Source of the DNA: a virus
Length of the DNA stretch: 20,824 nt
Direction: 5' to 3' (one strand)
Virus record (IMG/VR): IMGVR_UViG_3300046820_000838
Span: 1 to 20,824 of that record
Part shown: positions 2,157 through 14,235 of the stretch, in pieces
Position numbering within the stretch: position 1 is the stretch's first letter
Layout: each line of letters begins with the position of its first letter
Translations under genes and position numbers: made by a program
Notes under the pieces: model-generated
What the model saw: only the letters and a program-made list of their open reading frames with translations
What the model was told of the DNA's origin: nothing
The model's database searches: none

Positions 2157-2185
2157 ATACTAGCACACATAACCCAAAAAGTCAA
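2157..2185 (-). promoter_or_regulatory. Promoter of the minus operon (extended -10)
   Basis: On the minus strand: TTGACT, 17 bp, then TGC-TAGTAT. It is closely similar to the plus-strand promoter at 3321-3349, including TTGACTTTTTG and TGCTAGTAT. Here the spacer and the absence of a 6-nt ATG show a leadered transcript. Confidence 0.8.
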
Positions 2186-2195: not shown

Positions 2196-2222
2196 GGCGT
2201 GTCGCATGTGATTTAGACCACA
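2196..2222. promoter_or_regulatory. Composite operator: GGCGTGTCG plus CRP/GlxR-like site
   Basis: GGCGTGTCG (2196-2204) is followed after 2 nt by TGTGA-N6-CCACA (2207-2222), one mismatch from the CRP-type consensus TGTGA-N6-TCACA. The site lies about 65 bp upstream of the predicted start of the 1904-2119 operon, a position suited to an activator. Confidence 0.5.
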
Positions 2223-2325
2223 TACCAAATCGGACATATCGGACATCGCCACGTCGCCCATTTGTCAAGTCGACACACCGATAAAACTAGCATTGTTACG
2301 GAAATGTTATAATTCCCCCTAAAAA

Positions 2326-2357
2326 TGTGACCTACCTCTCATGTGACCTACCTCACA
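2326..2357. promoter_or_regulatory. Tandem CRP/GlxR-like sites
   Basis: There are two copies of TGTGACCTACCTC with a 16-bp period. The first reads TGTGA-N6-TCTCA (2326-2341, one mismatch). The second reads TGTGA-N6-TCACA (2342-2357, perfect). They lie upstream of the promoter for 2467 in the divergent control region 2120-2466. That region also holds repeated TCGGACAT words (2230, 2239) and the inverse word ATGTCCGA (2359). Confidence 0.55.
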
Positions 2358-2390
2358 ATGTCCGAATTATCCCATTTATACCCCTCAATT

Positions 2391-2412
2391 TGTCGTACCC
2401 CCATGCTACACT
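2391..2412 (+). promoter_or_regulatory. TGTCG-class promoter for the 2467 operon
   Basis: TGTCGTAC (2391-2398), 8 nt, then TACACT (2407-2412). This is the same element and spacing as at four other promoters in the window, but it is the weakest copy. An inverted repeat CTTGTA-TGTA-TACAAG (2411-2426) overlaps the predicted start point and could be an operator. Confidence 0.45.
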
Positions 2413-2466
2413 TGTATGTATACAAGGTTGAAAAAGAAGTAAGCCCCTTAAAGAAAGGTTATCAAA

Positions 2467-2649
2467 ATGATAACACTAGAAAAAACAACAGTATGCGTAG
2501 AGCATACCCCTAATAAGTCTGCTATCTCCGAAGTAGGAGATGACCAATTCACTTTTTGCGAAGTGTGTGAAAATAACATTGAGCGTTGGTATAACGATAC
2601 CGACCCAGAGCGTCTACCTATGTGGACAGATTGGAAGGTGTCTAAGTGA
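2467..2649 (+). CDS. 60-aa hypothetical protein with cysteine motif
   Basis: This is the first gene of the plus operon 2467-3198. AAAGAAAGG lies 8 nt before the ATG. The protein has C10 and a later CEVC pair (residues 31-34) plus H13, a possible zinc site, and an acidic C-terminal half rich in Trp. Its stop overlaps the GTG of the next gene (GTGA). No family recognised. Confidence 0.75.
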   Translation: MITLEKTTVCVEHTPNKSAISEVGDDQFTFCEVCENNIERWYNDTDPERLPMWTDWKVSK

Positions 2650-2810
2650 GTACTTTTGCACCAATGCCCTCCGTATGCGGGGCAACTACCGCTATGGTTG
2701 ATGTCTATGACTTTGACCTTAACCCTCATGGCGTTATCTGTTGCGATAATTGCCAATCAATTCTAATGTGCCGTAAGGCTTGGGACTATCTATACAAGGA
2801 GGTCAAATAA
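2646..2810 (+). CDS. 54-aa hypothetical protein, GTG start, CC..C cysteine motif
   Basis: It starts at a GTG overlapping the upstream stop (GTGA) and ends in a TAATG junction, so it is translationally coupled on both sides. Cysteines lie at C10, at CCDNC in the middle and at MCRK near the C-terminus, consistent with a zinc-binding fold. The ribosome site of the following gene (AAGGAGG, 2796-2802) lies inside its 3' end. Function unknown. Confidence 0.65.
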   Translation: MSTFAPMPSVCGATTAMVDVYDFDLNPHGVICCDNCQSILMCRKAWDYLYKEVK

Positions 2811-2956
2811 TGACTAAATACAATGTACTTATTTCTTATGTCGTAGAGGCAGAAGATGAAATGAGAGCGGTGTTCGCCCTTAACAAATCGCTATACCCGC
2901 TTAGCGAAAACGAAATCGAAAAGTTTAACGCTTTTCATGTAGAGGAGGCTAACTAA
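2810..2956 (+). CDS. 48-aa small protein, paralog of the next gene
   Basis: This is a TAATG-coupled gene preceded by AAGGAGG. The product has a beta-alpha-beta-like pattern: a hydrophobic strand (YNVLISYVVEAED), an amphipathic helix and a short strand with FHVEEA. The next product (2956) has the same layout (FELFVDVEADD, helix, FHVIDY), so the two are tandem paralogs. A similar VxVxA...EDAxxA pattern occurs in the C-terminal half of the 8673 product. Function unknown. Confidence 0.7.
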   Translation: MTKYNVLISYVVEAEDEMRAVFALNKSLYPLSENEIEKFNAFHVEEAN

Positions 2957-3096
2957 TGCCAATTTTTAATTTTGAGTTATTTGTAGATGTAGAGGCAGAT
3001 GATTTTGAGTCTGCTTATTCATGGCTAAAGGCTATGCCACTAGAAAGACAATTAGACTTTCATGTGATTGACTATCGACAGATTGAGGTTGAGTAA
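2956..3096 (+). CDS. 46-aa small protein, paralog of the preceding gene
   Basis: This gene is TAATG-coupled to the gene before it. It shares with that product the VEA[DE]D turn, a central helix and an FHV strand, suggesting tandem duplication of a minimal ferredoxin-like fold. The following ATG (3097) abuts its stop directly. No catalytic residues are evident and the function is unknown. Confidence 0.7.
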   Translation: MPIFNFELFVDVEADDFESAYSWLKAMPLERQLDFHVIDYRQIEVE

Positions 3097-3198
3097 ATGG
3101 AAAAAGATTTATTTGGATTTAGCGATGCAATTAATTTGGATCATCTAAACTTAGAACAACTAAAAGAGTTAGAAAAACTTTTAGAAAAAATAAAATAA
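3097..3198 (+). CDS. 33-aa helical microprotein
   Basis: The ATG directly follows the previous stop (TAAATG). The peptide is a single leucine-rich amphipathic helix with heptad-like Leu spacing and lysines at the end, so it could form a coiled coil with a partner. It is the last gene of the 2467 operon, followed 11 bp later by a hairpin (3208-3236). Its reality rests on junction spacing and composition only. Confidence 0.55.
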   Translation: MEKDLFGFSDAINLDHLNLEQLKELEKLLEKIK

Positions 3199-3207
3199 AT
3201 AAAAACA

Positions 3208-3236
3208 ATTTTGCAGAAATAAAAACTCTGCAAAAA
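3208..3236 (+). terminator. Operon-end hairpin
   Basis: TTTGCAGA (3210-3217) pairs with TCTGCAAA (3227-3234) across a 9-nt loop ending in AAAAC, and AATT/AATT flanks lengthen the stem with a bulge. There is no T-run. A CACGTGG motif (3240-3246) and DnaA-like boxes follow immediately. Confidence 0.6.
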
Positions 3237-3248
3237 TTGCACGTGGCG

Positions 3249-3269
3249 TTTTCCACAGGGTGTGGATAA
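3249..3269. promoter_or_regulatory. DnaA-box-like pair
   Basis: TTTTCCACA (3249-3257, one mismatch) faces TGTGGATAA (3261-3269), which is the reverse complement of the DnaA box TTATCCACA. Confidence 0.5.
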
Positions 3270-3273
3270 CTAA

Positions 3274-3289
3274 TGTGTTTAAGGTCACA
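3274..3289. promoter_or_regulatory. CRP/GlxR-like site
   Basis: TGTGT-N6-TCACA, one mismatch from the CRP-type consensus. It lies about 75 bp upstream of the predicted start of the 3321 promoter. A GGCGTGTCG word (3310-3318) lies between the two, 2 bp from the -35. Confidence 0.4.
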
Positions 3290-3320
3290 CGATTATTTTC
3301 CCAATTTACGGCGTGTCGAT

Positions 3321-3349
3321 TTGACTTTTTGAGATTTATCTGCTAGTAT
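3321..3349 (+). promoter_or_regulatory. Promoter with extended -10
   Basis: TTGACT (3321-3326), 17 bp, then TGC-TAGTAT (3344-3349). It is the twin of the minus-strand promoter at 2157-2185. It would transcribe the 3502 operon with a leader of about 145 nt that contains the direct repeats at 3387-3441. Confidence 0.75.
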
Positions 3350-3386
3350 AGTTACTATAAACAATTAAATAAAGATAAATAAGCAA

Positions 3387-3441
3387 TGAGCCTTAGCAAA
3401 TAAATGTGACCAGTATCACAGTGAGCCTAAGCAAATAAGTG
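3387..3441 (+). repeat. Two 20-bp direct repeats flanking a perfect CRP-like site
   Basis: TGAGCCTTAGCAAATAAATG (3387-3406) and TGAGCCTAAGCAAATAAGTG (3422-3441) differ at two positions and have a 35-bp period. Between them, sharing two bases with the first repeat, lies the perfect palindrome TGTGA-N6-TCACA (3405-3420). No reading frame explains the repeats, so they are probably regulatory. Confidence 0.65.
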
Positions 3442-3448
3442 CCCAATT

Positions 3449-3470
3449 TGTCGGTGCCCTCTGATAGGAT
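3449..3470 (+). promoter_or_regulatory. TGTCGGTG-class promoter for 3502
   Basis: TGTCGGTG (3449-3456), 8 nt, then TAGGAT (3465-3470). Sequence and spacing are nearly identical to the promoter at 4523-4544, including TAGGATAGT and TATCAA just downstream. It is followed by a leader with AAAGAAAGG. Confidence 0.6.
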
Positions 3471-3501
3471 AGTCTTATCAACTTAAAGAAAGGTAGTCAA
3501 A

Positions 3502-3687
3502 ATGACTTACACTATAACACTCGAAACCTTTAACGGTTCTACTAAAAAAATCGCTCTCCCTTCTAGAGGTGCGGTTGCTCAATTCCTCTCAACTTACCCA
3601 ACACAATTACCTGTTGGCGTATCTGTTAAAGTCGCTTGCGACTCTCTCGGTATTAGCGGAACACTAAGAGGAAAGGCGGTTCTATAA
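3502..3687 (+). CDS. 61-aa hypothetical protein, paralog of the gene at 1615
   Basis: The start is set by AAAGAAAGG nine nt upstream. The protein has a beta-strand N-terminus (MTYTITLETFNGSTKK), a helix around 25-35, and a glycine-rich C-terminal LGISGTLRGKA. Length and pattern match the minus-strand protein at 1615-1800, and both are paired with a CxxC...CxC microprotein. Function unknown. Duplication of a two-gene module on opposite strands is the main clue. Confidence 0.75.
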   Translation: MTYTITLETFNGSTKKIALPSRGAVAQFLSTYPTQLPVGVSVKVACDSLGISGTLRGKAVL

Positions 3688-3843
3688 ATGATAAACTCCG
3701 TCTTAACTATCCCCTGCGATGAGTGCAACTCAACAGGTTTACTTTTTTTCGGTAATGGCGATGACTATGATGTCGAAACTTGCGATTGTGATTTTGGTGC
3801 TGAGCAAGATTTCTTTTTATTTAATACACCCGAAGCAAACTAA
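3688..3843 (+). CDS. 51-aa zinc-binding microprotein (CxxC...CxC)
   Basis: The ATG directly follows the stop of 3502. Cysteines C10, C13, C32 and C34 with the sequence CDECNSTG followed by a Phe-rich strand match the 35-aa protein at 1797-1904. The C-terminal tail is longer and hydrophobic (FFLFNT). It is probably a single-zinc ribbon. It is followed by a ribosome site and the 3861 gene. Function unknown. Confidence 0.65.
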   Translation: MINSVLTIPCDECNSTGLLFFGNGDDYDVETCDCDFGAEQDFFLFNTPEAN

Positions 3844-3860
3844 AGAATAGGAAATAAAAA

Positions 3861-4067
3861 ATGGTAGAAATTAAACACTCTCTAAACTTCGTTACAGAAT
3901 TTGACGAAACTCATCCAGTTGCACAACAGGCCCTTGCACTGCCTCACTCAGAGTTGGTTGCAATGCTTGAAGGAATGCTAAAGGACCTGCTCGTGCCTGC
4001 GCTACTTCCAACAATTAACGAAATAAATGAAAACGGTTCCTATGCAATTCTAAAGGTGGTCCAGTAA
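3861..4067 (+). CDS. 68-aa hypothetical protein
   Basis: AATAGGAA lies upstream at suitable spacing. The product is a small, soluble, mainly helical protein with a conserved-looking core (LPHSELVAMLEGMLKDLLVPALLP) and no cysteine. A TAATG overlap couples it to 4067. I recognise no domain. Confidence 0.7.
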   Translation: MVEIKHSLNFVTEFDETHPVAQQALALPHSELVAMLEGMLKDLLVPALLPTINEINENGSYAILKVVQ

Positions 4068-4231
4068 TGATGACTCGCAAAGACTATGTAGAGGTTGCTA
4101 GAATTATTTCAAAGCATTCGAAAGGCGAACACTGCCGATTAGATGTTTTGATTGATGATTTTGCGTTTTGGTTCGCAGAAGATAATCCAAATTTCAAAAT
4201 GGAAAAATTTATGGAGGCTTGCAATGAGTAG
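4067..4231 (+). CDS. Small conserved phage protein starting MMTRKDYVEVAR
   Basis: It begins at ATG 4067 (TAATG overlap) or the adjacent ATG 4070 (MTRKDY...). The pattern MTRKDY-x-x-x-A near the start and FAEDNPNFKMEKF near the end matches a small protein type common in phages and plasmids (MTRKDY...NPRFD..RF). Its function is unknown as far as I know. It overlaps the small membrane protein gene at 4224 by 8 nt. Confidence 0.75.
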   Translation: MMTRKDYVEVARIISKHSKGEHCRLDVLIDDFAFWFAEDNPNFKMEKFMEACNE

Positions 4232-4349
4232 ACTACTAACAACAATTGTTCAACTATTTTTAGCGGGTAGCGTTTTTATTTTATTCCGCATGATGTTGCC
4301 AATGCTAAAAGAAGATTTGCAAGAATTAAAAAACGATTTTCAAAAGTAA
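4224..4349 (+). CDS. 41-aa single-span membrane microprotein
   Basis: This is an overlapping gene (ATGAG shared with the previous stop). Residues ~4-26 form one hydrophobic helix (LLTTIVQLFLAGSVFILF), followed by a charged amphipathic tail of about 14 residues (LKEDLQELKNDF). That layout would place a short cytoplasmic coiled-coil tail on a membrane anchor. It could be a holin- or Rz-like lysis accessory or a membrane-targeted host modulator, and the sequence does not decide. It is the last gene of its operon. Confidence 0.6.
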   Translation: MSRLLTTIVQLFLAGSVFILFRMMLPMLKEDLQELKNDFQK

Positions 4350-4357
4350 ATCGTGAT

Positions 4358-4382
4358 CCTGAGCAAGATTGAAAACTGCTCA
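4358..4382 (+). terminator. Stem-loop family copy 1 (CCTGAGCA...AAACTGCTCA)
   Basis: TGAGCA (4360-4365) pairs with TGCTCA (4377-4382) around an 11-nt loop ending in AAAAC. It lies 8 bp after the stop at 4349. A CACGT-type motif (GACGTGG, 4390) and two DnaA-box-like 9-mers follow. There is no T-run. Confidence 0.6.
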
Positions 4383-4399
4383 AAATTTTGACGTGGAAC

Positions 4400-4420
4400 T
4401 TATCCACAGGTTTATCCACA
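4400..4420. promoter_or_regulatory. Pair of DnaA-box-like 9-mers
   Basis: TTATCCACA occurs at 4400-4408 and 4412-4420, 12 bp apart, both perfect matches to the canonical DnaA box. Confidence 0.55.
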
Positions 4421-4440
4421 GGTGTTTAAGATGCAATTTG

Positions 4441-4473
4441 CGACACGCCCGAGATTTTGTGATTTTTATCACA
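4441..4473. promoter_or_regulatory. Composite operator: CGACACGCC plus perfect CRP-like site
   Basis: CGACACGCC (4441-4449), 8 nt, then TGTGA-N6-TCACA (4458-4473), a perfect palindrome of the CRP/GlxR type. It lies upstream of the 4523-4544 promoter. Confidence 0.6.
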
Positions 4474-4522
4474 TGACTTGAGCGTCTCATTATTTGGATT
4501 TACTCGCCAGTAGGTAGATAAA

Positions 4523-4544
4523 TGTCGGTGGCATAGGCTAGGAT
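4523..4544 (+). promoter_or_regulatory. TGTCGGTG-class promoter for 4585
   Basis: TGTCGGTG (4523-4530), 8 nt, then TAGGAT (4539-4544). It is closely similar to the promoter at 3449-3470. Confidence 0.6.
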
Positions 4545-4584
4545 AGTAGTATCAAGTTAATTAAAGAAAGAAGGTCGCCCCCCT

Positions 4585-4791
4585 ATGGCTACTAAACTAT
4601 ACACTATCGAAAACCTACTAGTAGGAAAAATTTACACTTCCCGTAATCGTAACTTTGAGGGCGAAATTGTTTCTGCTCGACCAAGAACAGAAATTTGGTA
4701 TGGCGATAATACCGAAGCATACCTAATCGAAATTAACACTCGCAGTTTGCGAAACAAGTTTGCGACTATCGCAATTAAGGTTGGTGAGTAA
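4585..4791 (+). CDS. 68-aa small beta-rich protein
   Basis: This is the first gene of operon 4585-5979, with AAAGAAGG and a C-rich spacer (CGCCCCCC) before the ATG. The beta-rich sequence contains IENLLVGKIYTS and FEGEIV. It weakly resembles the small SH3-like products at 7411 and 7690 (GD-x-FTT...TG-x-I), but I would not claim homology. TAATG-coupled to 4791. Function unknown. Confidence 0.75.
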   Translation: MATKLYTIENLLVGKIYTSRNRNFEGEIVSARPRTEIWYGDNTEAYLIEINTRSLRNKFATIAIKVGE

Positions 4792-4958
4792 TGATAAAAG
4801 AATACATTGACGAAACTGATTTTTATTTAATCAAAGATGAACAACGCTTTTGTTGTGATGAGTCACAATTTAAGTATGTATGCAAGGCTCATGGAGAGTC
4901 TATGGGTTGCTATTTTTGCGAGTTTGATTACTCAACAGATTGCGAGGAACAACACTAA
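4791..4958 (+). CDS. 55-aa cysteine-rich microprotein
   Basis: The gene is TAATG-coupled on both sides. It has six cysteines: CC at 21-22, C31, C40, C43 and C51. The CYFC pair plus C31 and H34 could form a zinc site. It is acidic and soluble. It belongs to the class of small Cys-rich proteins that recurs throughout the window. Function unknown. Confidence 0.65.
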   Translation: MIKEYIDETDFYLIKDEQRFCCDESQFKYVCKAHGESMGCYFCEFDYSTDCEEQH

Positions 4959-5101
4959 TGGGATACATTGAGATTTTTAGAATTGACGAAAACGGTGCAG
5001 GTTGGGTAGACTTAGATAATGCAACCCCCGATGAATTATTTACACTAGAGGTTGGCTTGCTTAATGAAGGCGCACTATTTACAACGAAAGAGGCAGAATA
5101 A
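4958..5101 (+). CDS. 47-aa hypothetical protein
   Basis: The gene is TAATG-coupled on both sides. It is an acidic protein with a beta-turn-beta start (MGYIEIFRIDENGAGWVDL) and a C-terminal helix (PDELFTLEVGLLNEGALF). No recognisable family. The case for a real gene is the exact junction spacing within the operon. Confidence 0.6.
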   Translation: MGYIEIFRIDENGAGWVDLDNATPDELFTLEVGLLNEGALFTTKEAE

Positions 5102-5313
5102 TGGAATATGAATATGTAATCACTAGCGCATATGATAGTAATGAGCCACATTGGACACAACGCTATGAGAACGAATTTGGTGCATGGGAAAACTTCTTCC
5201 TATTTACTGATTGGGGCATGGCTGAAGAATATCGCACAGTTAATCTTTACACTCCAACAGGAAAGTGTTACACTAAGTTATTCTATCGAGACGGAAGGGT
5301 GGTAGTTAAGTGA
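5101..5313 (+). CDS. 70-aa hypothetical protein rich in aromatics
   Basis: It starts at a TAATG junction. Many Tyr, Trp and Phe residues (MEYEYVITSAYDSN, WENFFLFTDWG) suggest a compact beta-rich fold. There are no catalytic motifs. Its stop overlaps the GTG of the next gene (GTGA). Function unknown. Confidence 0.7.
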   Translation: MEYEYVITSAYDSNEPHWTQRYENEFGAWENFFLFTDWGMAEEYRTVNLYTPTGKCYTKLFYRDGRVVVK

Positions 5314-5450
5314 GCGACTTAACCTATTGCGAAGAGTGTTATGAGAACTTAGACTATGATAAGTTTGATTCTCGATTTGAGCGACCAATTTGCCAAGAGT
5401 GCGTATATGCACTAGACTTAACCCCAGAACTACTAGAAGGAGCATACTAA
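5310..5450 (+). CDS. 46-aa zinc-ribbon microprotein (CxxC...CxxC)
   Basis: It has a GTG start overlapping the upstream stop. C7, C10, C28 and C31 form two CxxC pairs 17 residues apart, a textbook single zinc ribbon. The remainder is acidic. The ribosome site of the next gene (GAAGGAG) lies at its 3' end. The role may be protein-protein or nucleic-acid binding, which the sequence does not show. Confidence 0.65.
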   Translation: MSDLTYCEECYENLDYDKFDSRFERPICQECVYALDLTPELLEGAY

Positions 5451-5451
5451 T

Positions 5452-5736
5452 ATGGGAAGCGTAACAGCACTAGGAATACAAGATGAAGTGTTAGATTTAG
5501 AAACACAATTGCTATATCACCTGCAGGGTAATCACTACCCACCTGTCCCCGCAGAAATGGTAAAACCTTGCATTGAGGCTATTGACGCTTACTATGATGA
5601 GGACTATGAGCGAATGATTTCTATGCCTATGGTTGGTGACTTTCAGATTCTATATAAAGGAATGACTCACGCACCTGCAAGAGCAATTGTAGACCAGCAC
5701 CACCTATCTTTTTGGCTACCTGATTGGGAGGACTAA
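5452..5736 (+). CDS. Conserved phage protein with HYPPVP motif (94 aa)
   Basis: The start is preceded by GAAGGAG. The protein contains LLYHLQGNHYPPVPAEMV at about 20-37 and then a helix with AIDAY. This HYPPVP pattern is one I associate with conserved small proteins of actinophages, function unknown. No cysteines or membrane segments. It is followed directly by 5737 in the same operon. Confidence 0.75.
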   Translation: MGSVTALGIQDEVLDLETQLLYHLQGNHYPPVPAEMVKPCIEAIDAYYDEDYERMISMPMVGDFQILYKGMTHAPARAIVDQHHLSFWLPDWED

Positions 5737-5979
5737 ATGTCTGATACAATGGAAAGCATGGAATTGATCCACGCAGATAACTTAACACCAGACCAATTAA
5801 TGATTGGTGATTTAATTAAAGTTGGTGATGATATTGTTGAAGTTACTTTTATTGAAAGTGATTCGACAGGAGATAACTACGACATACAGACAGAAAATGA
5901 ATTTGGTGAAAGAGAGTTTACACAATACAGTTACACCGATTCAATTCCGTTGTATGTATTTATTGAAGAAGAAGAGTAG
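5737..5979 (+). CDS. 80-aa acidic protein, probable small beta-barrel
   Basis: The ATG directly follows the previous stop. Very acidic (ends IEEEE), with a beta-rich core: DQLMIGDLIKVGDDIVEV, TGDNYDI, then GEREFTQYSY. The GDLIKVGDDIVEV segment is typical of SH3-like or KOW-like folds, an inference from pattern only. Last gene of the 4585 operon, followed by a strong terminator at 5988. Confidence 0.75.
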   Translation: MSDTMESMELIHADNLTPDQLMIGDLIKVGDDIVEVTFIESDSTGDNYDIQTENEFGEREFTQYSYTDSIPLYVFIEEEE

Positions 5980-5987
5980 TTACAAGT

Positions 5988-6037
5988 ATTTTTATGCACT
6001 TCCCCGCATAAAAATGCACGTCCCGCATTCGGGCGTG
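5988..6037 (+). terminator. Tandem hairpin terminator
   Basis: ATTTTTATGC (5988-5997) pairs perfectly with GCATAAAAAT (6006-6015). Right after it, CACG-T-CCCG pairs with CGGGCGTG (6017-6037) around the loop CATT. The second stem overlaps the GGCGTGTCG word of the next operator. Confidence 0.75.
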
Positions 6038-6059
6038 TCGCAGTGTGATATTTATCACT
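6032..6059. promoter_or_regulatory. Composite operator: GGCGTGTCG plus CRP-like site
   Basis: GGCGTGTCG (6032-6040), 3 nt, then TGTGA-N6-TCACT (6044-6059, one mismatch). Its centre is about 54 bp upstream of the predicted start at 6106, suitable for activation. Confidence 0.5.
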
Positions 6060-6069
6060 TTAAGGCGGT

Positions 6070-6099
6070 TTGACATTTTTTCGCCATTTGTGCTAAGAT
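6070..6099 (+). promoter_or_regulatory. Leaderless promoter with extended -10
   Basis: TTGACA (6070-6075), 18 bp, then TGC-TAAGAT (6094-6099), followed by 6 nt and ATG 6106. No Shine-Dalgarno lies between. Confidence 0.75.
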
Positions 6100-6105
6100 T
6101 AGTTT

Positions 6106-6255
6106 ATGACTACAAAGAAAAGCCCTGAAGAGTTACGCAGACTTATGGAGTTGCGCCGTAGCAACGCTGCCTCTGCCGTGCCTTCTAAAAAGACTTACAC
6201 TCGCAAGGGTAGAAAATGTCAGTCCGAAATGCTAAAATTAAAGTATAACTACTAA
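6106..6255 (+). CDS. 49-aa basic protein, leaderless
   Basis: The -10 TAAGAT ends exactly 6 nt before this ATG, so the mRNA should start at the initiation codon. The protein is strongly basic, with a helical N-terminal part (EELRRLMELRRSNA) and a Lys/Arg-rich tail, suggesting nucleic-acid binding. It begins the 6106-7173 transcription unit, and AAAGAAAGG for the next gene overlaps its stop. Function unknown. Confidence 0.65.
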   Translation: MTTKKSPEELRRLMELRRSNAASAVPSKKTYTRKGRKCQSEMLKLKYNY

Positions 6256-6272
6256 AGAAAGGTCGTGCCCCC

Positions 6273-6449
6273 ATGACATTCGAAAATGATGAATACCTAG
6301 ACGCATACTATGCAACAACCTGTCCTTCATGCAAAGAAAACGCAGTAGATGACTACGAAGAAAAGTGCACACACTGCCTACTTGAAGAAATGTCCGCACA
6401 CTATAACGAAGACATTGCACTAGAAATGAGCCTTGGCCTTGACTACTAA
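6273..6449 (+). CDS. 58-aa zinc-ribbon protein (CxxC...CxxC)
   Basis: AAAGAAAGG is separated from the ATG by a C-rich spacer (GTGCCCCC). C17, C20, C32 and C35 form one zinc ribbon, and the rest is acidic. The gene overlaps the start of the Gp88-family gene by 11-17 nt. It sits directly upstream of a cysteine-rich protein and could work with it, but nothing in the sequence proves this. Confidence 0.7.
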   Translation: MTFENDEYLDAYYATTCPSCKENAVDDYEEKCTHCLLEEMSAHYNEDIALEMSLGLDY

Positions 6450-7173
6450 TACACTTACACTAAAAAGATCTAAAGATAGAAAAGTCGCTAACGCCGTTAC
6501 CCCTAATGGCAAGCAGGCGAGCATTGCTAATACATTCGGCCTACCTGCAGGCAAGGCCTACTCGTGCCCTGGTGCCACTACCGTATGCGAAAGCGTATGC
6601 TATGCAGGTAAACTAGAAAAGGTATTCCCTACCGTAAAGGTTAACCTTCTTCACAATTGGTCCCTGCTAAAAGACGCAGACGGTGAGACTATGGTCCGCC
6701 TACTTAATGAAATGATTGTTGATTTCAAGAATGATTGTGAAAAGAAAGACGCACCTAAGTTATTCCGTATCCACTGGGACGGCGATTTCTTTAACGATAC
6801 ATATGCATATGCATGGAAAGTCGTTATCAATAACCATGAGGATGTTCAATTCTGGGTATACACTCGTGTGAAGAGTGCTGCGATTATTCTTAAGGATGTA
6901 TCTAATCTTTCATTGTACTTCTCTGCAGATAGTGAGAATGTAAAAACAGCGGTAGATCTAAAAATTAATAGCGGTGTTCGCATGGCATATCTTGCTAAGA
7001 ATTTTGCTATTGGTCAAGCAGATGTTAAAGAAATGATTGGTAAGCCTGCTGCAAAGTGTCCTGAGAATAATAAACAAATTAAACTAATATCTCAAGCAGG
7101 TAGCGCTTGCGTTTCTTGCTCACTTTGTGTATACTCTAAGAGTGACATAATTTTTTCTGCAACTAAGAAATGA
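6433..7173 (+). CDS. Gp88-family phage protein (gene product 88)
   Basis: This 246-aa protein resembles the Gp88 family found mainly in actinophages. Visible landmarks are a glycine-rich start (NTFGLPAGKAYSCPGA, 34-48), the cysteine set C45-x6-C52-x3-C56 followed by YAGK, an HWDGDFF motif (114-120), a WVYTR strand (141-145), and a C-terminal set C209...C226-x2-C229-x2-C232. The cysteines suggest a metal or Fe-S cluster. No enzymatic activity has been firmly assigned, to my knowledge. The start is not ATG: TTG 6433 or TTG 6439, both inside the upstream gene, so translation is probably coupled. A GAAA-loop hairpin follows at 7244. Confidence 0.85.
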   Translation: MALTTNTLTLKRSKDRKVANAVTPNGKQASIANTFGLPAGKAYSCPGATTVCESVCYAGKLEKVFPTVKVNLLHNWSLLKDADGETMVRLLNEMIVDFKNDCEKKDAPKLFRIHWDGDFFNDTYAYAWKVVINNHEDVQFWVYTRVKSAAIILKDVSNLSLYFSADSENVKTAVDLKINSGVRMAYLAKNFAIGQADVKEMIGKPAAKCPENNKQIKLISQAGSACVSCSLCVYSKSDIIFSATKK

Positions 7174-7179
7174 GATGAG

Positions 7180-7242
7180 ATGAGCACAACACAAGTTATA
7201 TTTTTCTTTTGGTGTTTGCTTTTTTTATTTTTCTTGCAATGA
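7180..7242 (+). CDS. Candidate 20-aa hydrophobic membrane peptide
   Basis: Just after the Gp88 stop, ATG 7180 is preceded by GAGATGAG. It opens a 20-codon frame that is nearly one transmembrane helix, rich in Phe, Leu and Trp, ending at TGA 7242 just before the 7244 hairpin. The run of T in this segment would by itself encode Phe/Leu, so the hydrophobicity may be accidental. Treat as a candidate. Confidence 0.3.
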   Translation: MSTTQVIFFFWCLLFLFFLQ

Positions 7243-7243
7243 T

Positions 7244-7253
7244 CCCGAAAGGG
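7244..7253 (+). terminator. GNRA-loop hairpin at end of the 6106 operon
   Basis: CCC-GAAA-GGG, preceded by T-rich sequence and followed by CCACGT (7255-7260). The same GAAA-loop hairpin plus CCACGT occurs at 13652. Confidence 0.45.
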
Positions 7254-7285
7254 GCCACGTCGGCAAAATCTAATTTGTCAAGTTT

Positions 7286-7317
7286 CGACACGCCTTTAAG
7301 ATGTGATTAAGGACACA
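7286..7317. promoter_or_regulatory. Composite operator: CGACACGCC plus CRP-like site
   Basis: CGACACGCC (7286-7294), 7 nt, then TGTGA-N6-ACACA (7302-7317, one mismatch). It lies about 64 bp upstream of the predicted start of the 7337 promoter. Confidence 0.45.
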
Positions 7318-7581: not shown

Positions 7582-7612
7582 TCTCAAAATGTGAGAAATG
7601 TCAGAAATGGAT

Positions 7613-7873: not shown

Positions 7874-7925
7874 ACAAAAAACACGCCCCACAGAAATGCG
7901 TGTCTAAATAAATAGAGTGGGACAA

Positions 7926-7950
7926 CCTGAGTAAGTTGTAAAACTGCTCA
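7926..7950 (+). terminator. Stem-loop family copy 2
   Basis: TGAGTA (7928-7933) and TGCTCA (7945-7950) pair with one G-T wobble around an 11-nt loop ending in AAAAC. It precedes the ribosome site of 7988. Confidence 0.55.
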
Positions 7951-8410: not shown

Positions 8411-8422
8411 ATAAATCAACGA

Positions 8423-8447
8423 CCTGAGTATGTCGCTAAACTGCTCT
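8423..8447 (+). terminator. Stem-loop family copy 3
   Basis: GAGTA (8426-8430) pairs with TGCTC (8442-8446) around an 11-nt loop ending in TAAAC, 12 bp after a stop codon. Confidence 0.55.
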
Positions 8448-8574
8448 ACTCAATCCCTGCGTTCCACGCTATTTATAGCAAGCGTCCCCTGGGTGACAGT
8501 ATTCGCCAGGCTGATTAGGGCGATCATAGAAATACTATAGAGCAAGGTTACTGCCGACCTAAAGACGCAGACCT
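8448..8574 (+). ncRNA. Unexplained structured interval between two family stem-loops
   Basis: No credible gene lies here. The segment holds GCTAT-TT-ATAGC (8468-8479) and a larger nested stem: AGTATT (8498-8503) with AATACT (8531-8536), enclosing CGCC (8504-8507) with GGCG (8519-8522). It is not a tRNA, as I find no T-arm. Being bounded on both sides by copies of the same stem-loop, it may be a processed small RNA. This is inference from inverted repeats only. Confidence 0.35.
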
Positions 8575-8598
8575 CCTGAGTATGAGCCAAAACTGCTC
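8575..8598 (+). terminator. Stem-loop family copy 4
   Basis: GAGTA (8578-8582) pairs with TGCTC (8594-8598) around an 11-nt loop ending in AAAAC. It lies just upstream of the promoter at 8612, not after a stop codon. Confidence 0.55.
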
Positions 8599-9095: not shown

Positions 9096-9115
9096 TAGGG
9101 GGCTACTAATACGGA

Positions 9116-9142
9116 CCTGAGCATGTCTAAGTAAACTGCTCA
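9116..9142 (+). terminator. Stem-loop family copy 5
   Basis: TGAGCA (9118-9123) pairs with TGCTCA (9137-9142). The loop is 13 nt here, ending in TAAAC. It lies 20 bp after the stop at 9095. CACGTGGGG (9165-9173) and two DnaA-like boxes follow. Confidence 0.55.
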
Positions 9143-9174: not shown

Positions 9175-9194
9175 TTATCCACAGGTTATCCACA
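9175..9194. promoter_or_regulatory. Pair of DnaA-box-like 9-mers
   Basis: TTATCCACA occurs at 9175-9183 and 9186-9194, 11 bp apart (one helical turn). TCACATGTGA (9204-9213) and ATTACGA (9214-9220) follow. Confidence 0.55.
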
Positions 9195-9266
9195 TGATCA
9201 AGATCACATGTGAATTACGACACATTAAAAAAATGTCCGATTTACCCCATATCTAACTATCCCGAT

Positions 9267-9295
9267 TTGCATTTGTCGGTGGGTGGGTGTATGAT
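9267..9295 (+). promoter_or_regulatory. Promoter of the DUF932 gene
   Basis: TTGCAT (9267-9272), 17 bp, TATGAT (9290-9295). TGTCGGTG (9274-9281) lies 8 nt before the -10. The leader carries AAAGGAGA. Confidence 0.75.
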
Positions 9296-9325
9296 TGTAT
9301 TAACAACAACAAAAGGAGAAAACTC

Positions 9326-10348
9326 ATGGCACATGACCTAGAAATTCAAAACGGTAAGACATCTTTCGCATCTTTCCGTGAACCTGCTTGGCATGGATTG
9401 GGTACCGTATTTACAGAAGAAAAAACAACTGCAGAAATGCTAGAGGCTGCAAACCTCAATGGTTGGAATGTTCGTCTGGAAGATTTGGAAACCCCCTCAC
9501 ATCTAACAAGCGACAAAAACTATCAGTATGTTTTGCGTACTAATCCTACTGATAACACTCAGACCGACATTCTTGGTGTCGTTGGTGAGCGCTATCATGT
9601 AATGCAGAATGAAGATTTGTTTTCATTCGGTGATAACATTCTTGACGGCGGAGGTCGTTGGGAAACTGCTGGCTCAATCAAGGGTGGTCGTGTAGTATTC
9701 GGCTCTCTTGCACTAGAGCGTGAAACTGTTCTTGACCCTAGCGGTGTTGCAGATAAGGTAAAGACTTATTTGCTCATCAACACATCACATGATGGCTCAA
9801 TCGCTATTCAAGCATCTATTACCCCTGTTCGTGTTGTATGCGCTAACACTCTTAACCTTGCTCTTGGTGGCGTAGGTCGTAAGAAGAATAAGGGCATCAA
9901 GCAATCATTCAAGATTCGCCATACGCAAACTGCATCAGGCAAGGTGCAAATTGCTCGTGAGACTCTTGGTCTTGCTAATGCATACATGGACGAGTTCGAC
10001 ATCATGGCAAAAGCCATGTTCGAGAAAGAAGTCAATGCTAAGCAATTTAACGACATCATTCTTGCTGCATACCCAAAGCCTGAAAAGGATTCTAAGGGCG
10101 CTTTCAAGAAGTGGGAAAACAAGGTCGATGTTATCAACGACATCTACACAGGCGAATTTAACGGCATGATTGCTGGCTCTGCATGGGGCGCTTTCAATGC
10201 TTTAACTGAGCGCCTTGATTGGTACCGCTCTGCTCGTGGTGGTTCTAACGAATCCATTCTTGCATCTGCATCTGGTTTTGACCCTGCAATTAACGCAGAA
10301 AAGAATCGCTTGCTGAAAGTTGTGCAGAATGTTATGCAACTTGCATAG
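9326..10348 (+). CDS. DUF932 / TIGR03299 phage-plasmid protein
   Basis: The frame opens at 9287, but AAAGGAG and the promoter place the start at ATG 9326 (340 aa). It is recognised by the N-terminal PAWHGLGTVF motif (20-29), then YQYVLR, ERYHVMQNEDLFSF, the block AGSIKGGRVVFGSLALE, and the core SITPVRVVCANTLNLAL. These are hallmarks of the DUF932/TIGR03299 family, common in phages and plasmids, whose biochemical role is not established to my knowledge. The protein is near full length for the family. It is monocistronic, followed by a stem-loop and a tRNA. Confidence 0.9.
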   Translation: MAHDLEIQNGKTSFASFREPAWHGLGTVFTEEKTTAEMLEAANLNGWNVRLEDLETPSHLTSDKNYQYVLRTNPTDNTQTDILGVVGERYHVMQNEDLFSFGDNILDGGGRWETAGSIKGGRVVFGSLALERETVLDPSGVADKVKTYLLINTSHDGSIAIQASITPVRVVCANTLNLALGGVGRKKNKGIKQSFKIRHTQTASGKVQIARETLGLANAYMDEFDIMAKAMFEKEVNAKQFNDIILAAYPKPEKDSKGAFKKWENKVDVINDIYTGEFNGMIAGSAWGAFNALTERLDWYRSARGGSNESILASASGFDPAINAEKNRLLKVVQNVMQLA

Positions 10349-10366
10349 CATCTGATACAATTAAAT

Positions 10367-10391
10367 CCTGAGCATGATTTAAAACTGCTCA
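10367..10391 (+). terminator. Stem-loop family copy 6
   Basis: TGAGCA (10369-10374) pairs with TGCTCA (10386-10391) around an 11-nt loop ending in AAAAC. It ends only 3 bp before the tRNA, so it may serve processing rather than termination. Confidence 0.6.
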
Positions 10392-10497: not shown

Positions 10498-10613
10498 AAA
10501 ATGCCACGTGGGACAAACCAGACAAATCGGACATAAAATGTCAATCTTAAATTAAATTACGATGGATCACAAAAATCCCCAAAATGTCAAACCAAAAATT
10601 AATTACGATAGAC

Positions 10614-10642
10614 TTGACATTTTCCCGAATATCTGTCATACT
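10614..10642 (+). promoter_or_regulatory. Promoter with ATACTTAGGTATA
   Basis: TTGACA (10614-10619), 17 bp, CATACT (10637-10642), continuing as ATACTTAGGTATA as in the promoter at 7613. Two ATTACGA words lie upstream (~10556 and 10602). Confidence 0.75.
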
Positions 10643-10675
10643 TAGGTATACCCAAAAACGAAAGCAGACCCCACT

Positions 10676-10822
10676 ATGATAGACCTAGCCCAAGAACAGT
10701 TCCAATGCCTACTCTGTGATAGAGAAATGGAAGTAGACCATAATCGTTGTATTGACCACAACGATGAAGTTTGCTATGATTGTTGTACAGATGACGACCA
10801 CTCAAGTGAAAGAAATATCTAA
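10676..10822 (+). CDS. 48-aa zinc-binding microprotein
   Basis: It follows promoter 10614, with CGAAAG and a C-rich spacer before the ATG. C11, C14, C33, C36 and C37, plus His22 and His28, form a likely zinc ribbon. It is acidic. It is the first gene of a long run of small genes (10676-11527). Function unknown. Confidence 0.65.
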   Translation: MIDLAQEQFQCLLCDREMEVDHNRCIDHNDEVCYDCCTDDDHSSERNI

Positions 10823-10823
10823 C

Positions 10824-10988
10824 ATGACCCAAACAATGAGAACGATTGATGAATTAGTTAATGAGATGTACATGGACAATGAGGCACATCTCGAATATAT
10901 GGAAAATATGAACGGTGGGGATTGTGATTGTAACATCCACACTACCCTAAATACAATAGTCAAATACTGGTGGGATGAGGAGAACTAA
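10824..10988 (+). CDS. 54-aa acidic hypothetical protein
   Basis: The frame is open from 10752, but ATG 10824, one base after the previous stop, avoids a long overlap. The sequence is acidic and Met-rich, with CDC around residue 35 and a Trp-Trp near the C-terminus. TAATG-coupled to the next gene. No family recognised. Confidence 0.6.
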   Translation: MTQTMRTIDELVNEMYMDNEAHLEYMENMNGGDCDCNIHTTLNTIVKYWWDEEN

Positions 10989-11146
10989 TGCTAGGTTATA
11001 CTAAAGAAGATTTAGATACTATGATTGAATCTATTGCTACCGCTCTACTTTTGGTAGATGATACAAATGACCCTTGGCTACATGGAAACTTAAGTAGAAC
11101 TAAGGAGTTTCTTGAAGGCCTATGGGCAGAAGGGTACTTTGACTAA
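10988..11146 (+). CDS. 52-aa helical hypothetical protein
   Basis: The gene is TAATG-coupled on both sides. Two helices (TKEDLDTMIESIATALLL and SRTKEFLEGLWAEG) are joined by DDTNDPWLHGN. The helical-hairpin pattern is similar in kind to the products at 11146, 11531 and 11689. Function unknown. Confidence 0.65.
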   Translation: MLGYTKEDLDTMIESIATALLLVDDTNDPWLHGNLSRTKEFLEGLWAEGYFD

Positions 11147-11295
11147 TGGATTTATTAGATTTTGTTAAAGGTCGTATTGATGAACTAACCCTGCTTCGTG
11201 ATGAGTACCAGGGCGAGGGTGACTATGAGATGGACGACTACTGTGCAGGGGCTATTGATGCCTACGATATTGTCCGAATGAAGTTGGAGGAGTAG
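11146..11295 (+). CDS. 49-aa acidic helical hypothetical protein
   Basis: TAATG start. The N-terminal helix DLLDFVKGRIDELTLL and the C-terminal YCAGAIDAYDIVRMKL form a helical hairpin. The C-terminal G-x-x-x-A-x-x-x-V spacing recurs in the 11689 product (NEGYMDALSSVYAL), perhaps a shared small fold. Two bases separate it from 11297. Function unknown. Confidence 0.65.
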   Translation: MDLLDFVKGRIDELTLLRDEYQGEGDYEMDDYCAGAIDAYDIVRMKLEE

Positions 11296-11296
11296 T

Positions 11297-11527
11297 ATGT
11301 GGAGCAAGTATACCTTTGTCTGTGATCCTGAAGAGTGTGACGCTCTTGTAGAGTTTACTGCCAGGGATGGCTTTGGCTTTCCCCTGGGGGTAGTGGAGAT
11401 GACCTGTGCCTGTGGCAGGAAGTTAAACTATATTAGTTATGAAGAGGCCTATGCTCCGATCATCACAGATGTGAGCAAGGTCACACCCCGTACAGTTGTA
11501 AAAATCAATACGAACCCCTATAATTAA
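11297..11527 (+). CDS. 76-aa hypothetical protein with cysteine motifs
   Basis: GTTGGAGGAG lies upstream. C9 and C14, then CAC at 37-39, could bind zinc. The middle is beta-rich (LVEFTARDGFGFPLGVVEM). The last codons (TAT AAT) contain the -10 hexamer of the next, leaderless gene. Function unknown. Confidence 0.7.
   Translation: MWSKYTFVCDPEECDALVEFTARDGFGFPLGVVEMTCACGRKLNYISYEEAYAPIITDVSKVTPRTVVKINTNPYN
11496..11524 (+). promoter_or_regulatory. Leaderless promoter inside the 3' end of 11297
   Basis: TTGTAA (11496-11501), 17 bp, TATAAT (11519-11524), then 6 nt and ATG 11531. Confidence 0.7.
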
Positions 11528-11530
11528 TAT

Positions 11531-11686
11531 ATGGACCTAAACACATTTATCGAATACATTAAACTGCACCTAATCAGTCTTGAACAAGACCTTGAAGAAA
11601 ACCCTTCGTCTATCCATGTGGTAGATATCGAGGGACAAATCTATGCTACCAAACATCTTTTGTCAGTGGCAGAGGGTAGAATATAA
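11531..11686 (+). CDS. 51-aa helical protein, leaderless
   Basis: The ATG lies 6 nt after a consensus TATAAT, with no Shine-Dalgarno. The protein is two helices (FIEYIKLHLISLEQDLEEN and GQIYATKHLLSVAEG) around SSIHVVDIE. Similar small helical proteins flank it. Function unknown. Confidence 0.65.
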   Translation: MDLNTFIEYIKLHLISLEQDLEENPSSIHVVDIEGQIYATKHLLSVAEGRI

Positions 11687-11688
11687 TT

Positions 11689-11970
11689 ATGGAAACGACA
11701 CAACTAGACCCAAGACTGCAAAAACTCGTAGACCTAGGGGAATCAGGAACTGATATCCTCCATGGCGAACTTAAGAATATGATGTATGAGTGTGAGAAGA
11801 TACTCGTGCCTCTGCTGGAGAACTCTAATGAACTTGGCTCTGATGAGGAGTATGACGATACAGTAGAGCGCTTATATAATGAAGGATACATGGACGCTTT
11901 GTCTAGTGTCTATGCTCTTACATATCAACTAGCCTTTGCTATCAGTGACAGGATAAAGAACAATGGATAA
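11689..11970 (+). CDS. 93-aa acidic helical protein, leaderless
   Basis: TAGAAT (11677-11682) ends 6 nt before the ATG. A nearer TATAAT is too close to act, and no good -35 is seen. The protein is acidic and helical with a GYMDALSSVYALTYQLAFAI C-terminal helix that is moderately hydrophobic but not clearly a membrane span. It overlaps the next gene by 8 nt. Function unknown. Confidence 0.7.
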   Translation: METTQLDPRLQKLVDLGESGTDILHGELKNMMYECEKILVPLLENSNELGSDEEYDDTVERLYNEGYMDALSSVYALTYQLAFAISDRIKNNG

Positions 11971-12406
11971 CTTTATTGAAATGGATTTTGATGAGTGGGT
12001 TGATACCTACAAGCCAATCATTAATCATATAGATGAACATGCTTCATTCGACAATGGTGATGGTGGCATTATGTTTGAAACCTATGGCGATGAGGTAGAG
12101 TTTGTTAAGTCTCAGGACCCCGCCAAAATCTGGATGTATGGGGATGGCGACGACGGTGGTTCATATATCTGGTCTGGCTGGGGATTTGTAAACAGATTAG
12201 GATACTTTATTACTGAAGTACCATGCCCACCTGACACGACCATTCAAATCCGTGTCAGTTATAACTGGTTCTACTGTGAAAACTGTAGCGCTGAGTTTGA
12301 GGACCCTGATAATATAATCAGAGATGCATTTGATGATGAGGACTTGCAAAAATGTCCCGAATGTGCTACACTTGAAGAAATGACCCTAGTAGGATTGGAG
12401 AAATAA
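11963..12406 (+). CDS. 147-aa conserved phage protein with C-terminal zinc ribbon
   Basis: It overlaps the previous gene by 8 nt and is joined to the next by TAATG. The N-terminal part (1-90) is rich in Asp, Gly and Trp (ETYGDEVEFV, YGDGDDGGSYIWSGWGF). The C-terminal part has CENC (about 105-108) and CPEC (about 131-134), a zinc ribbon. I associate this type with phage proteins of unknown function. The domain order suggests a zinc-stabilised binding protein, which is inference. Confidence 0.75.
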   Translation: MDNFIEMDFDEWVDTYKPIINHIDEHASFDNGDGGIMFETYGDEVEFVKSQDPAKIWMYGDGDDGGSYIWSGWGFVNRLGYFITEVPCPPDTTIQIRVSYNWFYCENCSAEFEDPDNIIRDAFDDEDLQKCPECATLEEMTLVGLEK

Positions 12407-12738
12407 TGGCAATTGATAGTTTCGATAATGTTGTCTTAGCAGGACACATTGGAGTTGATTCAGGACAGATAATGATTGGTGACCCTTGCTATCTAGATGG
12501 CTGGGACAACAATGTGGGCGAGGAGTGGAACCCCGAAGGCAAGGAAGGTCAGTATTGCTACCAAGGTGTGTCCGCTACTACAATTAGAGATAACTACGGA
12601 CAGATTGGCGGCGGTCTTGCTGTTGCTATGAGCACAGGCTATGGCGATGGTCAATACCCTGTTTATGTTCAGTTAGATAGTGAAGGCCGTGTTGTTCTAG
12701 CGGTAATCGATTTCAATGATGTATTGTTAGGAGAGTAA
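12406..12738 (+). CDS. 110-aa conserved protein with GDPCYL and GYGDGQYPVY motifs
   Basis: TAATG start. The sequence has VDSGQIMIGDPCYLDGW (17-33) and later STGYGDGQYPVYVQLDSEGR. This is a compact beta-rich domain pattern seen in small phage and bacterial proteins of unknown function. I am not sure of the Pfam name. No catalytic residues are assigned. It is in an operon with 11963 and 12741. Confidence 0.75.
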   Translation: MAIDSFDNVVLAGHIGVDSGQIMIGDPCYLDGWDNNVGEEWNPEGKEGQYCYQGVSATTIRDNYGQIGGGLAVAMSTGYGDGQYPVYVQLDSEGRVVLAVIDFNDVLLGE

Positions 12739-12740
12739 TA

Positions 12741-13106
12741 ATGGGAGCAAGGATCAACTTTATATTTAAAGAGTCAGACACTCGACCTGCAGTTGTACTC
12801 TACAGCCACTGGGGTGAGACTGAATGGCAGCGGGACATAGCAATGGCCCTGCAGCATGCTAAGCCTAGATGGATTGATGACTCATATGCTACCCGCATGA
12901 TGATTAGTTATCTTATTCAGGATTCAGTCCTAGAAGAAACAGGCTTTGGAATTTATGCAGTTAACGGCCCTAACTATGAATTAGGCGATACCACTGTAGT
13001 CATCGACTTTTGGAATAAGACTGTTTATGAGGTGGGCTCCAGCACACATGTCAACTGGAATAATTTCATAGCAGCATACGCACCAAGTTTAGTTGAGCAA
13101 GTCTAG
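12741..13106 (+). CDS. 121-aa conserved phage protein (MGARINFIFKESD type)
   Basis: TAGGAGAG precedes the start. The protein begins MGARINFIFKESDTRPAVV, then YSHWGETEWQRDIA, SYATRMMISYLIQD and ETGFGIYAVN, a pattern I recognise from conserved phage proteins of unknown function. It is soluble, alpha/beta and 121 residues, about the usual length. It is the last gene of the unit, and the stop codon is inside a hairpin (13102-13123) followed by a terminator. Confidence 0.75.
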   Translation: MGARINFIFKESDTRPAVVLYSHWGETEWQRDIAMALQHAKPRWIDDSYATRMMISYLIQDSVLEETGFGIYAVNGPNYELGDTTVVIDFWNKTVYEVGSSTHVNWNNFIAAYAPSLVEQV

Positions 13107-13174
13107 AGATTGGGTCCTCTAGATTAATAGGGTGGGAAGGGCAGGCGTGGGGCTTGCTCTTTCCCCCACTTTTT
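13102..13174 (+). terminator. Double terminator; first hairpin contains the stop codon
   Basis: TCTAGAG (13102-13108) pairs with CTCTAGA (13117-13123), and the stop TAG is within the left arm. Then a GC-rich imperfect stem (13132-13170, GTGGGAA...TTTCCCCCAC) is followed by TTTTT. The second is a good intrinsic terminator. Confidence 0.8.
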
Positions 13175-13182
13175 GATACAAT
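13154..13182 (+). promoter_or_regulatory. Promoter of 13200 embedded in the terminator
   Basis: TTGCTC (13154-13159) inside the terminator stem, 17 bp, TACAAT (13177-13182). A leader of about 11 nt carries GGGAG before ATG 13200. Confidence 0.6.
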
Positions 13183-13199
13183 AGATACAAGGGAGAACT

Positions 13200-13406
13200 A
13201 TGCGAATAAGCAGACGAGTCACAGAAGAAGAAAAGGTTGCCAACAGAATTGGTAACATGGTTTCAGACCTTCGTGTTGATTTGGAATTGGTCGGGGAATA
13301 CTTAGCCAAGTCCCAACCTTATGTAGTCTATAACCGATTACAGACAATTGCAGAGTCAGCAAAAGAAACTAAGGAAGGTACAAACTATGCTTACAACAAC
13401 CTTTGA
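13200..13406 (+). CDS. 68-aa basic helical protein
   Basis: GGGAG lies 4 nt before the ATG. A basic N-terminus (RISRRVTEEEKVANRIGNMV) leads into a long helix with LRVDLELVGEYLAKSQPYVVY. It may be a DNA-binding or DNA-associated protein, which is inference. It overlaps the next gene by 20 nt. The type is familiar from small phage proteins of unknown function. Confidence 0.7.
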   Translation: MRISRRVTEEEKVANRIGNMVSDLRVDLELVGEYLAKSQPYVVYNRLQTIAESAKETKEGTNYAYNNL

Positions 13407-13647
13407 GAACAAGGCTTTCATCTTGGGGCAACTGTGGATTAACTACAAGGCTGAAGATGAGTGGATTGATTTCTTTATTTATAACGATTTAGGTTTGCCA
13501 CTTGCTTTCGCATTTGCCGAGGGTATCATCAATCACACACCAACACTTGAACAGTATGTAAACGAAACATGGGATTTGTTTATTGAAGGTTTGGGAATTG
13601 AGGATGAAGGGTTTGAAGATATTCAAGATTTGTTAGAGGACGACTAG
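13387..13647 (+). CDS. 86-aa conserved phage protein (ILGQLWINYK type)
   Basis: The frame extends to 13348, but AAGGAAGG correctly precedes ATG 13387. The protein has FENKAFILGQLWINYK (6-21), YNDLGLPLAFAFAEGII (~33-49) and a C-terminal acidic tail. I associate this pattern with widely distributed small phage proteins of unknown function. It is the last gene of its unit, with a GAAA-loop hairpin 4 bp after the stop. Confidence 0.8.
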   Translation: MLTTTFENKAFILGQLWINYKAEDEWIDFFIYNDLGLPLAFAFAEGIINHTPTLEQYVNETWDLFIEGLGIEDEGFEDIQDLLEDD

Positions 13648-13651
13648 TCCT

Positions 13652-13663
13652 GCCCGAAAGGGC
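13652..13663 (+). terminator. GAAA-tetraloop hairpin
   Basis: GCCC-GAAA-GGGC, perfect and immediately followed by CCACGTG. It lies 4 bp after the stop at 13647. No T-run. Confidence 0.55.
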
Positions 13664-13816
13664 CCACGTGACATATTTTGATCAATTTGTCAAACCTCAT
13701 TTCCAAAAGACATTACGATCCAAACCAAAAAATCCCCAAACCAAGACATTACGAACCCTCAAAACTTTCCCCCTGCTGAACTTATACCATATCAAACCAG
13801 GTTTGTCAAACCATGT

Positions 13817-13822
13817 TATAAT
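13817..13822 (+). promoter_or_regulatory. Leaderless -10 for 13829
   Basis: TATAAT followed by 6 nt and ATG. No good -35 at 16-18 bp. CAAACCAGG and TTGTCAAACC lie just upstream. Confidence 0.5.
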
Positions 13823-13828
13823 TATATT

Positions 13829-14050: not shown

Positions 14051-14145
14051 CTTCTACCCCCTATAGAATAACAAACCATTTCTCCTTGGTTTCTAGAAAA
14101 ACCATAATAGTTTTATTAAAAAACATTACGATATTGGCAAATTTT

Positions 14146-14170: not shown

Positions 14171-14183
14171 GCATAAAATGGGC

Positions 14184-14212: not shown

Positions 14213-14235
14213 GCCCAAACCATGCATATCAAGGT

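Follow-up and report, generated by a model that had tools for sequence, protein, structure and literature searches.

The IMG/VR virus record IMGVR_UViG_3300046820_000838 is a stretch of 20,824 bases with 39% G+C, analysed here in full as the window, in which a CRP-like palindrome (TGTGA-N6-TCACA) and a 9-mer (CGACACGCC) recur upstream of predicted promoters. Besides the genes listed below, it encodes an endonuclease VII, a pyrimidine dimer glycosylase and numerous tiny genes. The relatives considered are 80 viral contigs picked by a GP88 identity of 80-94%, the longest of which (119 kb) encodes a terminase, a ribonucleotide reductase and a head protease with 40-42% identity to that of the Stanwilliamsviridae (Streptomyces phages such as Annadreamy and Karp that also have large genomes); the DUF932 protein of the window matches other large Streptomyces phages at 53%. 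WhiB, whose gene is a hallmark of actinophages, was matched in all 19 large phage records tested (18 above cut-off). The family appears to consist of lake viruses infecting actinobacteria, and the phage of the window probably infects a freshwater member of the Nanopelagicales, with no host link found for the window itself. A scan of genome contigs for a host by homology gave one phage contig only, L103 (CAINGU010000031.1), a relative of ~110 kb (terminase 56%) in a 5.4-Mb metagenome-assembled genome labelled 'uncultured cyanobacterium'. Because relatives of this contig carry the actinobacterial whiB gene, it is probably misbinned, and it was not used as evidence on the host.

The main features of the window are as follows; promoters are sequence predictions called blind to site positions, and site centres are numbered relative to them.

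2157-2185, minus strand: leftward promoter (-35 TTGACT, 17 bp, -10 TAGTAT), serving genes at 2119 and leftward
2196-2204, minus strand: CGACACGCC, proposed WhiA box of the '>' class, centred at -50 of the leftward promoter
2207-2222, minus strand: CRP-like site, one mismatch, centred at -64.5 of the leftward promoter
2326-2357, plus strand: tandem CRP-like sites, with one mismatch at 2326 and exact at 2342; by analogy with relatives, the exact site is centred at about -75.5 of a promoter with -35 TTGTCG at 2390 and a weak -10
3274-3289, plus strand: CRP-like site, one mismatch, centred at -74.5
3310-3318, minus strand: CGACACGCC in '<' orientation, centred at -42, 2 bp upstream of -35 TTGACT
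3321-3349, plus strand: promoter (-35 TTGACT, 17 bp, -10 TAGTAT)
3405-3420, plus strand: CRP-like site, exact, centred at -64.5 with respect to -10 TAGGAT (3465-3470), weak -35; gene at 3502
4441-4449, plus strand: CGACACGCC, 8 bp upstream of the CRP-like site at 4458
4458-4473, plus strand: CRP-like site, exact, centred at about -85.5, -10 TAGGAT at 4539; gene at 4585
6032-6040, minus strand: CGACACGCC in '<' orientation, 3 bp upstream of the CRP-like site at 6044
6044-6059, plus strand: CRP-like site, one mismatch, centred at -54.5; -35 TTGACA at 6070, -10 TAAGAT at 6094
6433-7173: GP88 gene
7286-7294, plus strand: CGACACGCC, 7 bp upstream of the CRP-like site at 7302
7302-7317, plus strand: CRP-like site, one mismatch, centred at -63.5 (-10 TAGACT at 7361) or -71.5 (-10 TACTAT at 7369); gene at 7411
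7590-7605, plus strand: CRP-like site, one mismatch, centred at -51.5; -35 TTGACA at 7613, -10 TATACT at 7637
9193-9224, plus strand: tandem CRP-like sites with two and one mismatches, the second centred at about -85.5, upstream of the DUF932 gene
9287-10348: DUF932 gene
11470-11485, plus strand: CRP-like site, exact, centred at -53.5, -10 TATAAT at 11519
14458 and 17372: CRP-like sites, one mismatch each

The palindrome is present as four exact and nine one-mismatch sites. The original prediction, made from the sequence of the window, had listed exact copies at 2342, 3405 and 4458 and one-mismatch copies at 2207, 2326, 3274, 6044 and 7302, all intergenic; every entry is correct in position and setting, and the list lacks the exact site at 11470 and the one-mismatch sites at 7590, 9209, 14458 and 17372. 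The site at 11470 sits in the 3' end of an open reading frame (ORF; 11297-11527), directly upstream of a strong promoter. By chance, 0.015-0.04 exact sites (four observed) and 0.7-0.9 at up to one mismatch (13 observed) are expected under Markov models of order 1-3, in keeping with the earlier estimate of about 0.02 exact sites, and half-site spacings of 0-19 other than N6 yield 0-1 exact sites each in the window. Enrichment in relatives, which the prediction called for, was found as well: in the 80 relatives the N6 spacing has 412 exact sites and each other spacing from 0 to 16 has 0-5. A spacer bias (T..T/A..A) leads to the internal consensus TGTGAtnTAnaTCACA, which agrees with the GlxR/CRP consensus TGTGANNTANNTCACA (PMC4254451), including its central T/A preference. 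In three relatives of 109-119 kb, each genome has ~12-15 sites, exact and one-mismatch copies taken together, and these and the 9-mers are confined to a single stretch of small genes (59.8-79.6 kb in G001, whose whiB gene lies outside it at 53.2 kb) and absent among structural and most replication genes. Judged by gene type, this is probably an early region. The earlier claim that phage operons come under a host regulator would apply to the small-gene region and not to all operons.

Relative to promoters, the sites are helically phased. In a non-redundant set of 3,121 promoter-like sequences, the centres of the CRP-like sites cluster at -53.5, -64.5, -74.5 and -84.5; these positions, to within 1 bp, account for 237 of 303 non-redundant pairs of site and promoter (chance ~30%). 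The best Rayleigh period of the distances is 10.25 bp, with a p-value not to be taken literally, the sequences of relatives not being independent. Distances of -64.5, -66.5 and -75.5 also occur in phages with almost no proteins in common. Such phasing upstream of predicted promoters is the signature of class I activation. Class II placement (-41.5) and operators overlapping the promoter were rejected, with hardly any sites at those positions, and the phasing upstream of promoters rather than across them argues against simple repression.

Two further words lie close to the sites. TGTCCGA (window 2359-2365 and 9234-9240) occurs at preferred offsets between the CRP-like site and the -35 box, 23-33 bp downstream of site starts in relatives. 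DnaA boxes (TTATCCACA) occur nine times in the window (3261, 4400, 4412, 9175, 9186, 14404, 14415, 14448 and 14885; 0.16 expected) and 420 times in the 80 relatives, where most precede a CRP-like site by 10-60 bp. They were considered as a member of the composite described below and, being upstream yet without phasing, were kept out of the mechanism.

The 9-mer CGACACGCC is exact at 2196, 3310, 4441, 6032 and 7286. At up to one mismatch it occurs seven times in the window (0.94 expected; none of 100 shuffles reached seven), and its 263 copies in the 80 relatives rank it 11th of ~102,000 9-mers. As predicted, four copies lie within 8 bp of a CRP-like site (gaps of 2, 8, 3 and 7 bp), while the copy at 3310 is next to a -35 box, 2 bp from TTGACT at 3321. 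At least 120 stretches from viral contigs hold the exact unit TGTGAN6TCACA-NN-CGACACGCC. Spelling the 9-mer backwards at the same place gives no viral contig stretch, and neither does swapping the order of the two elements, so that both spacing and order in the composite are constrained. With respect to promoters, the 9-mer is centred at -50 in the '>' orientation (40 cases) or at -42 in the '<' orientation (29 cases), adjoining the -35 box. In the -64.5 class, 64 of 80 promoters have it at up to one mismatch, and there it is nearly invariant over about 11 bp (CGACACGCCGT). A related unit, TTGTCAAG-N-CGACAC(A/G)CC, is present at 2263-2279 and 7278-7294 of the window and in many contigs; in it, 2-4 bp separate the 9-mer from a perfect -35 in reverse (TTGACA), and a -10 box is lacking.

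The sharp phasing and composite spacing bear on whether the sites are promoter elements at all. They might instead be decoys titrating host CRP (and DnaA), as the many copies per genome and the many DnaA boxes close by could suggest; a decoy has no need of a fixed promoter distance, and ~12-15 sites per genome would be a small sink, which makes this reading scarcely credible.

Most composite-bearing contigs belong to the family of the window (terminase 56-92%). The composite is also found outside it, in L134, L136, L140, L178 (which has an Arthrobacter-phage-like primase), L180 and L197 together with L311 (0.53-0.58 G+C), in L163 and L147 (terminase 80% to cultured Planktophila phages) and in L227 and L166. 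These unrelated actinophages span 0.43-0.58 G+C, and the 9-mer is spread over four or more phage groups with few or no proteins in common, relatedness being judged from a pair table since single-linkage grouping was too loose. Contigs L191 and L241 (G+C 0.67-0.68) were set aside as possible chance matches. The Planktophila phages LanE43-AprE7 (E7; OX376640) and LanE43-AprF5 (F5; OX376641) were isolated on 'Ca. P. landstejnensis' LanE-43, so that their host is known to belong to the Nanopelagicales. Like the window's family, they have a WhiB gene and carry both elements between genes, each with two exact CRP-like sites (0.03 expected) and one CGACACGCC; unlike it, they have 39-kb genomes, with almost no proteins in common.

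A host factor would be the simplest common cause of elements recurring in unrelated phages. The repeated, intergenic sites in one genome region might also serve a phage-encoded master regulator unrelated to host CRP, an arrangement often seen with phage regulators (compare the stoperators of cluster A mycobacteriophages). A stoperator-like system would entail a regulator in the same phage and sites limited to relatives, a combination that was not found. CRP-type helix-turn-helix (HTH) and cyclic nucleotide-binding domains, searched with two Pfam models, gave no match in 15 and 19 phage records (positive controls were detected), and a phage-encoded CRP was rejected. With sites, spacing and promoter positions common to unrelated phages, a phage master regulator is very improbable. 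A phage-encoded WhiA was also rejected: HTH_WhiA had no match above cut-off in 19 phage records and one sub-threshold match, in F5 only.

The second element of the composite had been assigned to an unknown factor. The pairing is real and rigid, and its reader may not be wholly unknown, as CGACACGCC contains GACAC, the asymmetric recognition sequence of WhiA, which is read in either orientation (PMC3781837). WhiA binding in vivo requires WhiB. In a proposal made in a review, WhiB sits on sigma-A and WhiA upstream, leaving space for class I activators, and the phage promoters look like this layout. The WhiA/WhiB-RNA polymerase cryo-EM study of Lilic et al. in 2023 reportedly places both proteins directly upstream of the -35 box; taking that position as a yardstick, the 9-mer at -50 or -42 of sigma-A promoters would lie where a WhiA/WhiB target should. 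WhiB chains are on record as 8DY7 and 8DY9.

We consider it reasonably probable that host CRP, as class I activator, and host WhiA, with host or phage WhiB, jointly drive the small-gene promoters of the phage. A host CRP/GlxR dimer would bind the palindrome and contact RNA polymerase, host WhiA would bind the GACAC core of the 9-mer beside the -35 box, and WhiB, the host's or the phage's own, would sit on sigma-A region 4 together with WhiA. The two inputs would act together, and the phage would read the nutritional and cell-cycle state of its host through sites that the host already recognises. Judged from motifs and their placement, the CRP part is well supported: the GlxR consensus, the promoter phasing, the lack of a phage CRP and the recurrence in unrelated actinophages strongly favour the host CRP/GlxR-type control originally proposed. 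The partner at the 9-mer is most likely WhiA/WhiB.

Several points weigh against this joint reading. The invariant stretch at the 9-mer runs to about 11 bp, against the 5-bp GACAC of Streptomyces WhiA; some copies have a -35-like TTGACA and no -10; and all promoters are predicted. Host CRP and WhiA, with their specificities, are presumed from phage sequence. E7 and F5 hold both elements, not joined in the strict composite, and the 126 kb of the cultured relative Annadreamy contain no exact site, so that this wiring does not extend to the wider group in general. Host CRP might act at the palindrome with a reader other than WhiA at the 9-mer, either a phage regulator passed between actinophages or another host protein with a ~10-bp site. 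The greater length and far greater rigidity of CGACACGCCGT compared with GACAC would suit such a reader, as would the copies that lack a CRP site and a -10, and with ~1% of random 9-mers containing GACAC or its complement the match is suggestive and no proof. The spread over at least four phage groups favours a host factor, however, and the position beside the -35 box suits WhiA/WhiB; a reader other than WhiA is rather unlikely.

Control by host CRP and WhiA would relate the composite to known systems and also set it apart from them. The CRP/GlxR regulons of actinobacteria (GlxR of C. glutamicum, CRP of M. tuberculosis) act mostly by activation via RNA polymerase recruitment (PMC4254451) and have the consensus TGTGANNTANNTCACA in common with the phage sites, which differ in targeting virus promoters, in the strict composite with CGACACGCC and in lying at -53.5/-64.5/-74.5/-84.5. 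The WhiA/WhiB cell-division regulon of Streptomyces and Corynebacterium likewise uses a GACAC core in either orientation with joint WhiB action, whereas the phage site is longer, invariant and paired with a CRP site, its WhiA reading coming from the motif. In phage GIL01, a host regulator, LexA, also reads the phage genome (PMC4551915); here there would be two putative host activators, a fixed composite and several small-gene promoters, common to unrelated phages. No earlier report of such a composite was found in open papers (subscription literature lay outside the search), in agreement with the original statement that none was known, and a fixed two-factor host-regulator code common to unrelated phages would be new. 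A more specific version, in which freshwater actinophages combine class I host CRP with host WhiA and supply WhiB to switch WhiA on, is possible and held tentatively. If true, it would give actinophage whiB genes a concrete role and explain their frequency, serving the phage's own transcription as well as stopping host division. The two-input code itself would tie infection to the carbon/cyclic AMP state and division cycle of the host, and provide a motif for spotting actinophage promoters in metagenomes. The Nanopelagicales rank among the most abundant lake bacteria, and gene control in their phages is little known.

A compact RNA pseudoknot of the H type, NNNC-CTGAGYA-N-GNNN-(about 6)-TGCTC, has another repeated word, AAACTGCTC, as its 3' strand.

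4353-4381, 7921-7949, 8418-8446, 8570-8598, 9111-9141 and 10362-10390, plus strand: six copies of the pseudoknot

It often lies 2-15 nt past stop codons and is possibly a 3'-end element of phage mRNAs. Relatives hold 185 distinct copies, 180 of them with three or more base pairs in the first stem and an identical 1-nt gap. For a selection of 29 distinct copies, standard pairs fill 97.3% of pair cells (81.4% when shuffled), and every slid control failed. Stem 1 covaries strongly, all four of its pairs varying on both sides; stem 2 is invariant except for C-G/U-G. Rfam gave no match at the gathering threshold, and the pseudoknot is absent from E7 and F5.

The words ATTACGA and GACATTACGAACG recur at 10533-15169 and 18236 of the window, mostly in non-coding sequence. 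Towards its end, a 471-aa ORF (19398-20813) fuses a luciferase-like monooxygenase domain (weak) with a 2-oxoglutarate-Fe(II) oxygenase domain, and a second 2-oxoglutarate oxygenase (18498-19124) adjoins it.

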